From Pseudacidovorax sp. RU35E (GTDB lineage: Bacteria > Pseudomonadota > Gammaproteobacteria > Burkholderiales > Burkholderiaceae_C), in contig NZ_FTMY01000002.1 of the NCBI RefSeq assembly GCF_900156165.1, forward strand, positions 248,001 through 312,000: a DNA stretch of 64,000 nucleotides, written 5' to 3'. How positions within the stretch are numbered: position 1 is the stretch's first letter; the number at the start of each line of letters is the position of its first letter. Both the position numbers and the translations under genes were made by a program. The notes below the pieces were generated by a model that saw nothing but the letters and a program-made list of their open reading frames with translations, did no database searches and had not been told where the DNA came from. Positions 36,109 through 38,091 of the stretch are shown in pieces.

Positions 36109-38091
36109 ATGTCCTACCTCGTGCTCGCCCGCAAATACCGTCCTCGCAATTTCGGCGAGATGGTGGGGCAGGAGCACGTGGTGCAGGCCTTGAGCAATGC
36201 GCTCACGCAGCAGCGGCTGCACCATGCCTACCTCTTCACCGGCACGCGCGGTGTGGGCAAGACAACCGTCTCGCGCATCCTGGCCAAGTCGCTCAACTGT
36301 CAGGGGCCGGACGGGCAGGGCGGCATCACCGCCACGCCCTGCGGCGTGTGCCAGGCCTGCACCGACATCGACGCCGGCCGCTTCGTCGACTACACCGAAC
36401 TGGACGCGGCTTCCAACCGCGGTGTGGATGAGGTGCAGGGCTTGCTGGAACAGGCTGTCTACAAGCCAGTGCAGGGCCGCTTCAAGGTCTTCATGATCGA
36501 CGAAGTGCACATGCTCACGAACACCGCGTTCAACGCGATGCTCAAGACGCTGGAAGAGCCGCCCGAATACCTCAAGTTCGTGCTGGCCACCACCGACCCG
36601 CAGAAGGTGCCGGTGACGGTGCTCAGCCGCTGCCTGCAGTTCAACCTACGGCCGATGGCGCCCGAGACGGTGCTGGAGCATCTGACGCATGTGCTGGGCG
36701 CCGAGCGGATCGAGGCCGAGCCGGGTGCCCTGCGCCTGCTGTCGCGTGCGGCGCGCGGCTCCATGCGCGATGCGCTGTCCCTCACCGACCAGGCCATCGC
36801 CTATGGCAATGGCAGCCTGGCCGAGGGCGGCGTACGGCAGATGCTGGGCAGCGCGGACCGCGGTCATGTGCATGCGTTGATCGATGCGCTGGCGCGCGGC
36901 GACGGAGGCACCGTCGTCGAGACGGTCGAGGCCATGCGTGTGGCCGGCCTGGCCGCTGCCTCCACCTTGGAAGAAATGACGGCGGTGCTCCAGAGCATGG
37001 CTGTGCTGCAGGCCGTGCCCTCGCGTGCGGCGGCCATCGATGCCGCGGACCCGGATGCGGCCGAAGTCGCTCGGCTGGCCGGCAGCATGCCCCCGGACGA
37101 GACGCAACTGCTCTACAGCATCTGCCTGCATGGCCGCTCGGAGTTGGGTCTGGCGCCCGACGAGTACGCCGGGCTCACGATGGTGTTGCTGCGCCTGCTG
37201 GCCTTCAAGCCTTCGGGCGGGGCTGAAAAAAAAAGTCCGCTGAACGCTGAAGCGCGGCCGCCGGCCGGGGGCGTTGCGACGACGTTTGCGACGCCGTCAG
37301 CCCCCACCGTGGCGAAGGCGGCGGTTGCGTCGGCGCCCGCTCCCGTCATGCCTGCCGTGCCGACGCCGGTGGCGCAGGCGGGCCGGCCCTCCGCCGTGCC
37401 GACGCCCGGCGCGGACCGTGGATCGCCGGTGCCTGTGCCTGTCGCCCCCCGTGGTGACGTGGAGCCTGCGGTCGCCCCCCATCCGCGTCCCGCAATGGCC
37501 GGGGCCGGGTCTGCGCCCGCCTCTGCCCATCCCGTGCACCGACTGCCCGTGGTCGACATGCCGGCCCGTGGCGCCTCGGTGTCGGCGCGGCCGGTGTCCT
37601 CCACCGAGGAGCCGGACACGCCCGTCGTCGCTGTCCCCTTGCGTGTGCAGCCGCCCCCCGGTGCGCGCGAAGCGCCGCGCGAGTCCGCGGCGGCGCGCAT
37701 ACGTCCCAGCGAAGAGGGCGACTTCTGGCACCAGACCGTGATGGGCCTCGTAGCCGCAGAGGCGATCAACGCGCTGGCGCGCGAGCTGGCGTTGCAGTCG
37801 CAGCTGGTGGCGCGCGACGTCGACCAGTGGCTGCTGCGCGTGGAGCGCGAAACCCTCAATCAGGGCGCGAGCCGTGAGCGATTGCAGAATGCGCTGGCTG
37901 GCGCCGGCCATGCCGTGCGGCTGGCCATCGAGGTCGGCGCGGTCGTCGACAGCCCGGCGTTGCGCAACAAGGCCGCGGCCGAGGCCCGGCAGCTCGCGGC
38001 CGAGCAGGCCATCATGGGCGACCCCGATGTGCAGGCCCTCATGCGCCAGTGGGACGCCCGCATCGTGCCCGGCTCTCTCAAGCCGGCCTGA
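36109..38091 (+). CDS. dnaX: DnaX, DNA polymerase III tau (and probably gamma) subunit
   Basis: The protein has 660 residues from MSYLVLARKYRPRNFGEMVG. The AAA+ clamp-loader part has Walker A GTRGVGKTT (about 45-53), a zinc module (Cys64, Cys78, Cys81, Cys84), FMIDEVHML and SRC (LSRCLQFNL). A Pro/Ala linker begins after residue about 372, then the tau-specific domain that binds polymerase and helicase. Codons 373-376 lie in an A9 run (37226-37234), and both other frames stop within about 16 bases. This suggests a gamma form of about 378 residues made by slippage. A -10-like TAGAAT lies nine bases before the start. Confidence 0.97.
   Translation: MSYLVLARKYRPRNFGEMVGQEHVVQALSNALTQQRLHHAYLFTGTRGVGKTTVSRILAKSLNCQGPDGQGGITATPCGVCQACTDIDAGRFVDYTELDAASNRGVDEVQGLLEQAVYKPVQGRFKVFMIDEVHMLTNTAFNAMLKTLEEPPEYLKFVLATTDPQKVPVTVLSRCLQFNLRPMAPETVLEHLTHVLGAERIEAEPGALRLLSRAARGSMRDALSLTDQAIAYGNGSLAEGGVRQMLGSADRGHVHALIDALARGDGGTVVETVEAMRVAGLAAASTLEEMTAVLQSMAVLQAVPSRAAAIDAADPDAAEVARLAGSMPPDETQLLYSICLHGRSELGLAPDEYAGLTMVLLRLLAFKPSGGAEKKSPLNAEARPPAGGVATTFATPSAPTVAKAAVASAPAPVMPAVPTPVAQAGRPSAVPTPGADRGSPVPVPVAPRGDVEPAVAPHPRPAMAGAGSAPASAHPVHRLPVVDMPARGASVSARPVSSTEEPDTPVVAVPLRVQPPPGAREAPRESAAARIRPSEEGDFWHQTVMGLVAAEAINALARELALQSQLVARDVDQWLLRVERETLNQGASRERLQNALAGAGHAVRLAIEVGAVVDSPALRNKAAAEARQLAAEQAIMGDPDVQALMRQWDARIVPGSLKPA
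37226..37250 (+). promoter_or_regulatory. A9 slippery tract with flanking stops in dnaX
   Basis: Nine A residues (37226-37234) are followed by GTCCGCTGA. In the +1 frame the next codons are AAA GTC CGC TGA (stop at 37241-37243). In the -1 frame they are AAG TCC GCT GAA CGC TGA (stop at 37248-37250). The normal frame stays open. A CGGCC-GCC-GGCCG hairpin lies at 37255-37267. This resembles the E. coli A AAA AAG frameshift site and the Thermus A9 transcriptional slippage site, both in dnaX. Confidence 0.75.

Follow-up and report, generated by a model that had tools for sequence, protein, structure and literature searches.

A conserved A9 run in dnaX as a probable transcriptional-slippage site for a short clamp-loader subunit

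The dnaX gene and its A9 run

The window, the whole 64-kb stretch of DNA that was analysed, contains a dnaX gene for the tau subunit of DNA polymerase III (Table 1). The encoded protein scores 395.4 bits against the NCBIfam model dnaX_nterm (TIGR02397; cut-off 250), which places it in that family, and matches the Pfam models DNA_pol3_delta2, DNAX_ATPase_lid, DNA_pol3_gamma3 and DNA_pol3_tau_5, giving a layout of clamp-loader domains I–III followed by the tau-specific linker and domain V. The tau C-terminal domain is present, with 45.8 bits to PF12170 against a cut-off of 28.8. The ORFs located 3' of dnaX are presumably ybaB and recR, the same gene order being annotated in E. coli MG1655.

Table 1. 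Positions, within the window, of dnaX and of the features in and around its A9 run
Feature	Position	Strand	Basis or remark
dnaX (DNA polymerase III tau, 660 aa)	36109..38091	+	ORF with NCBIfam and Pfam matches
Domain III (residues 241–365; last domain expected in gamma)	36829..37203	+	Pfam PF12169, E 2.9e-20
A9 putative slippage run, phase GAA AAA AAA Axx	37226..37234	+	Sequence; same phase in relatives
TGA ending the +1 frame (mRNA with A8 or A11)	37241..37243	+	Stop ends 9 bases past the run
TGA ending the -1 frame (mRNA with A10 or A13, or -1 ribosomal slip)	37248..37250	+	Stop ends 16 bases past the run
GGCC-GCC-GGCC hairpin, role doubtful	37256..37266	+	Sequence; not conserved in sequence
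Tau domain V (residues 526–652; missing from predicted gamma)	37684..38064	+	Pfam PF12170, E 8.9e-12

The run of nine adenines, bounded by G on both sides, lies in an ORF of 70.7% GC, as the initial annotation had noted, and is read in frame as GAA AAA AAA AGT, codons 373–376 of 660. That annotation had also placed the shift point, near codon 373, just past the clamp-loader domains, and the Pfam boundary of domain III at residue 365 agrees with this position. The in-frame heptamer is A_AAA_AAA, and not the A_AAA_AAG of the E. coli type. The window holds no other run of eight or more A or T (0.05 matches are expected from shuffles), and the whole genome (5.69 Mb) holds 11 placements of A9, which form 10 tracts, one of them A10. 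Two other A9/T9 tracts of this genome (L187 and L188, at C17:47624 and C17:608129) lie about 40 bp or less from tRNA genes, for His and Val.

Both alternative frames close with TGA soon after the run, in keeping with the earlier claim that shifts of +1 and -1 each meet a stop within 16 bases. The computed full-length products of mRNAs with A9 and A12 are 660 and 661 residues long (tau, about 69 kDa), and the computed short products of A7, A8, A10, A11 and A13 are 379, 377, 380, 378 and 381 residues long. The gamma predicted from A8, A10, A11 or A13 is therefore 377–381 residues long, about 40.4–40.8 kDa by computation, a range that includes the 378 or so residues first proposed.

Conservation of the run and of the stops behind it

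Relatives were collected by a tblastn-confirmed scan of genome records, from which the best 80 of at least 579 were used, a set biased towards full-length matches. The record titles name Pseudacidovorax, Xenophilus, Variovorax, Rhodoferax, Acidovorax, Paracidovorax, Ramlibacter, Polaromonas, Hydrogenophaga, Limnohabitans, Delftia, Curvibacter and other genera, which we take to be Comamonadaceae; some titles give just Proteobacteria, Burkholderiales or similar. All 80 relatives (the best 80 of at least 579) read as a single dnaX ORF and carry exactly one A9 per gene, in the same codon phase and soon after domain III. The initial annotation had named disappearance of the run from close relatives as evidence that would count against slippage; among these best 80 of at least 579, every gene has kept it. 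Across the 81 sequences (the window and the best 80 of at least 579; 592,233 bases in total) no further A9 or T9 is found, while A8 occurs twice and T8 three times. The conservation of A9 in these relatives is not due to chance. Phase variation by DNA slippage was considered as the main reading and rejected, because no out-of-frame allele was seen among 138 distinct run-bearing genes; none of the 138 has a 0-frame stop within 100 codons past the run, two of the sequences ending sooner.

The run is in frame as A AAA AAA in all 121 distinct A9 genes, which have in common that it encodes E-K-K or Q-K-K. Conservation could therefore also reflect the protein sequence, or history, with no programmed product at all and with nearby stops that abort accidental slips; stops close to a slippery run limit damage whatever the purpose of the run. 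The codons, however, speak against this explanation, which we hold to be quite improbable: the two lysines at the site are AAA AAA in 81 of 81 genes (the window and the best 80 of at least 579), although in the rest of these ORFs AAG outnumbers AAA about two to one (AAG 811, AAA 415), and were slips a mere hazard, synonymous AAG would remove it.

The stops were compared with a null in which the codons after the run were recoded synonymously with each gene's own usage (200 trials, 81 genes). For the window and the best 80 of at least 579 relatives, 74 of 81 genes have both frames closed within 31 nt past the run (null mean 13.5, maximum 22), the -1 frame has a stop within 22 nt in 68 of 81 (null mean 17, maximum 28) and the +1 frame within 9 nt in 73 of 81 (null mean 51, maximum 60). 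The excess in the +1 frame is the smaller one, since CTG A is already favoured by the amino acids encoded there. When the sample is thinned to about one gene for each genus (14 genera known by name plus 38 fetched genomes, possibly overlapping), both frames are closed in 48 of 52 genes, against a null mean of 9.4 and a maximum of 19 in 300 recodings. These comparisons are contrasts and not p-values, the sequences being related and not independent. Slippage by RNA polymerase requires closure of both frames; a -1 ribosomal shift requires closure of just one. Together, the conservation of the run and the paired stops support the reading of the site as a putative slippage site for a gamma subunit.

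The known parallel is dnaX of Thermus thermophilus, in which, according to passages of two papers, a single dnaX ORF has A9 on its sense strand, tau comes from the 0 frame, stops lie nearby in both other frames, and slippage occurs in transcription with termination in either frame (PMC1088944, PMC5009743). The features of the Thermus type recur here, namely at least nine A in one dnaX ORF past the clamp-loader domains (codon 373 versus the end of domain III at 365), a nearby stop in each of the two other frames (9 and 16 bases past the run), and a run length kept in 80 of 80 relatives (the best 80 of at least 579) and in 81 of 135 family genomes. The two differ in that the lineages are unrelated, and in that those passages report slippage with about 50% short product for Thermus, whereas the present site is known from its sequence.

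We put at roughly two in three the probability that A9 is a site of programmed slippage in transcription, giving rise to a gamma of 377–381 residues beside tau. In the mechanism we infer, which comprises the slippage by RNA polymerase, the making of gamma and the role of gamma, the RNA-DNA hybrid of the polymerase would realign inside the nine A:T pairs, and dnaX mRNAs with A8, A10, A11 and so on would arise beside the faithful A9. An mRNA with A9 or A12 would be translated into full-length tau, and the others would reach a stop within 9–16 bases and end as gamma, which would keep domains I–III and be without the tau-specific parts that, by analogy with E. coli, hold the polymerase and the helicase. 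A single gene would thus probably yield two forms of the clamp-loading protein.

A ribosomal type of signal in related genera

The same short product could come from the same run by way of the ribosome, through a -1 slip on A_AAA_AAA or two-way sliding on AAA, the mRNA being uniform. The reference for this route is E. coli dnaX, whose signal is described in passages of PMC3711429 as A_AAA_AAG with an upstream Shine–Dalgarno sequence and a stem-loop. Like the window gene, it is predicted to give a short gamma that ends after domain III; its -1 stop lies 6 nt past the run and its +1 frame stays open for 38 nt. Unlike it, the window gene has A9 and lacks both an exact four-base Shine–Dalgarno match and a conserved stem, and each of its alternative frames closes within 16 nt.

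Clear signals of the E. coli type are found within the window's own family. A search with the A_AAA_AAG pattern gave matches in 40 of 399 family genomes, seven of the matches being dnaX signals and one an A9 dnaX (G167), and 30 family genomes were fetched for run type by genus. A_AAA_AAG is present in dnaX of every genome drawn from g99 (5/5), g168 (5/5) and g152 (1/1) (rows L356–L360, L368, L374, L377, L379, L384 and L385). These are the same gene in the same family with the same predicted short product, but unlike the window's A9 they have six to seven A followed by G, a GGGAG- or GGAGG-like stretch about 15 nt upstream (the spacing is 10 nt in E. coli), a -1 stop 6 or 12 nt past the run, and only rarely an early +1 stop (1/11). 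A near-identical block, GTGCCGCCGAGCC-NNN-AAAAAAG, is shared by five genomes of g99 and two of g168; common descent or constraint may lie behind it.

After five duplicate contexts were dropped, the comparison set comprised 121 A9, five A10, one A8 and 11 A_AAA_AAG genes. A stop in the +1 frame within 12 nt is found in 112 of 121 A9 genes versus one of 11 A_AAA_AAG genes, and both frames are closed within 31 nt in 111 of 121 versus four of 11; the -1 frame taken singly has a stop within 31 nt in 114 of the 121. An upstream anti-Shine–Dalgarno duplex of -6.5 kcal/mol or better, a cut-off chosen after the values had been seen, is present in 10 of 121 versus 11 of 11. Because the A_AAA_AAG genes come from three genera only, Fisher p-values for these contrasts overstate the independent evidence. 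The folding energy just past the site does not differ between the two groups (p 0.91). The A9 genes as a group are without the clearest marks of the family's apparent ribosomal signal. Since the A_AAA_AAG relatives carry E. coli-like marks that the A9 group mostly does not, the comparison favours transcription over translation.

Upstream of the window run, no exact four-base Shine–Dalgarno match occurs within 25 nt. The best duplex there, -6.3 kcal/mol (6.5th percentile of its own ORF), is just short of the post hoc cut-off; the corresponding value for E. coli dnaX is -7.4 kcal/mol (1.1st percentile). Shine–Dalgarno-like sequences are not enriched upstream of A9, with five of 81 genes (the window and the best 80 of at least 579) at or below the 5th percentile where about four are expected. 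The 42 nt immediately upstream of the window run (37184–37225) fold well, at the 3rd percentile of the ORF (z -2.36), a property that is not general, being at or below the 5th percentile in 12 of 81 genes (the window and the best 80 of at least 579). An upstream hairpin drives slippage in one IS element, as reported in a passage of PMC5009743.

Downstream, the GC-rich hairpin that the initial annotation had placed about 20 bases past the run does exist, but its sequence is not conserved: it is absent from the eight relatives checked (seven distinct, L380 repeating L003), each of which folds otherwise. Dinucleotide shuffling gave z from 0.30 to -0.92 for the window and means from -0.28 to -0.71 for 41 of the 81 genes; the stem known from E. 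coli escaped detection in this way (z -0.48), and positional percentiles were used instead. On that scale, the 45-nt stretch from 4 nt past the window run is at the 58th percentile for its own linker, and 17 of 81 genes (the window and the best 80 of at least 579) are at or below the 5th percentile with about four expected, in a weak test that ranks the E. coli stem just at the 10th. As a required part, the window hairpin is not borne out, being absent from the relatives checked and unremarkable in percentile; it is not wholly dismissed, but this particular hairpin is best left out of the interpretation. Scanned by offset, the 32-nt windows that start 6–36 nt past the run average -9.6 to -10.9 kcal/mol in the 121 A9 genes and about -8 kcal/mol further on; with a mean z of just -0.18 to -0.33, the rise is partly one of composition. 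The 11 A_AAA_AAG genes have a clearer peak of structure about 12 nt past the run, whereas the rise in the A9 genes is broad and modest. What stands of the proposed downstream structure is a modest average rise in structure 6–40 nt past the run across the 121 A9 genes, and a looser preference for structure behind A9 is possible.

Several of these observations suit the ribosome. The run is in frame as A AAA AAA in every A9 gene, ribosomes can slip, if weakly, on A_AAA_AAA as well, structure past the run is modestly raised, the window's upstream duplex comes near the cut-off, and three related genera carry clear E. coli-type signals. In addition, large excursions and sliding of ribosomes on iterated AAA in E. 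coli are described in part of PMC4363877, so that translation stays conceivable even with both frames closed. In genus g164 (L369, L371, L372, L373 and L378; 5/5), dnaX has A10 followed by G, GAA AAA AAA AAG CTG, with both frames closed; this arrangement contains an in-frame A_AAA_AAG, which also suits the ribosome, and has no Shine–Dalgarno duplex at the -6.5 kcal/mol cut-off. We nevertheless consider the ribosomal route unlikely. The A9 genes have no Shine–Dalgarno enrichment, they close the +1 frame within 12 nt although a -1 slip does not need it, and they retain a third A where AAG would work better, A_AAA_AAA being less shift-prone than A_AAA_AAG in E. coli according to a passage of PMC5009743.

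The complement of lysine tRNAs does not help to separate the two routes. Both UUU and CUU tRNA-Lys were found in the window's own genome (30 of 49 tRNA places scanned), as is reported for Thermus. By pattern, CUU tRNA-Lys is present in 53 of 81 A9 genomes, one of three A_AAA_AAG genomes and 45 of 49 run-less genomes of the family. The notion that a second tRNA-Lys disfavours ribosomal shifting therefore fails as a rule, the CUU tRNA not sorting A9 from A_AAA_AAG genomes.

Distribution in the family and the order

For a less biased sample, 150 genomes of the window's family group were searched with the N-terminal dnaX model, the sole basis on which genes were picked (142 over its cut-off). The A9 pattern matched dnaX in 40 of the 150, and 100 genes without a pattern match were fetched, five of which could not be framed. 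Of the 135 genomes classified (15 were left out), 81 have A9, 49 no run, three A_AAA_AAG, one A8 and one A10. In genus g155, none of the five genomes drawn has a run, and in g94 one of five has A9. One family row, L293 (G174), matches the N-terminal dnaX model in two neighbouring pieces that lie in different frames, owing to either a frameshift within the clamp-loader domain or an error of assembly there.

A FastTree tree of 141 N-terminal DnaX rows, built without 37 of the 40 genomes whose A9 came solely from the pattern match, has 55 of 138 inner branches open and is thus weak at depth. It contains a clade of 78 rows (support 80) that comprises 74 A9, A10 or A8 rows, two A_AAA_AAG and two run-less rows; outside it lie three A9 rows (L212 and two of family f48) and one A_AAA_AAG row (L294).

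The 49 run-less genomes and the five drawn from g155 are consistent with a run that makes no programmed product, and they imply that the A9 route to gamma is dispensable. The different frameshift signal that g99, g168 and g152 carry in the same linker stands against that explanation, since the short product then seems to be selected. With programmed transcriptional slippage as the preferred reading for A9, it is close to an even call, tilted slightly towards yes, that the means of making gamma has switched within this one family, between RNA-polymerase slippage and ribosomal frameshifting of the E. coli type, and was lost or never gained elsewhere. The marks used for this proposal are A9 or A10, both frames closed and no Shine–Dalgarno sequence for the polymerase, and A_AAA_AAG, a Shine–Dalgarno sequence and a closed -1 frame for the ribosome.

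If such a switch did take place, selection would maintain the short product even as the machinery behind it turns over. The A9 signature, fixed in the best 80 of at least 579 relatives, and the E. coli-type signal of other genera suggest a wider selection for gamma, and offer a natural comparison between two machines, polymerase and ribosome, that apparently serve one purpose in related bacteria. The purpose of gamma is debated, a question that can be put to the test in related genera that differ in having a signal.

The slippage mechanism itself is already known. Our literature search, which did not extend to Larsen et al. 2000, the key Thermus paper, found no report of A9 dnaX slippage in Comamonadaceae, nor of a mechanism switch among relatives or of A9 fixation in a lineage. 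A 2012 review holds that most bacteria besides enterobacteria and Thermus keep no dnaX frameshift signature and may make no gamma (PMC3290774). A 2005 survey of A9/T9 runs covered only genes in which slippage lengthens the product (PMC1088944), and two later surveys followed (PMC3711429, PMC4066793). In one of these, poly-A slippage is proposed for two-ORF dnaX genes with A10 and similar runs (a GeneTack cluster; PMC3711429), a likeness to the present gene. As described there, however, those genes are broken in frame at the DNA level and depend on slippage for tau, whereas tau is the direct product of the window gene.

The order was sampled with 100 genomes, three of them in the window's family (its own included), and 96 besides its own were read. 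Most of the 96 are without a run of six or more A in the stretch examined. Ten other families have 8–11 A in at least one genome, some of these in another phase or further along the linker, and families f48 and f50 have A9 in the window's phase. The dnaX A-run trait may have been recruited more than once, with independent origins in other families. Runs of A9–A11 in dnaX were seen in f43 (L098, L131), f37 (L091, L099), f50 (L120, L130), f48 (L100, L102), f45 (L112), f13 (L142) and f4 (L165); f43 closes both frames within 11 nt, and f50 closes the -1 frame only.
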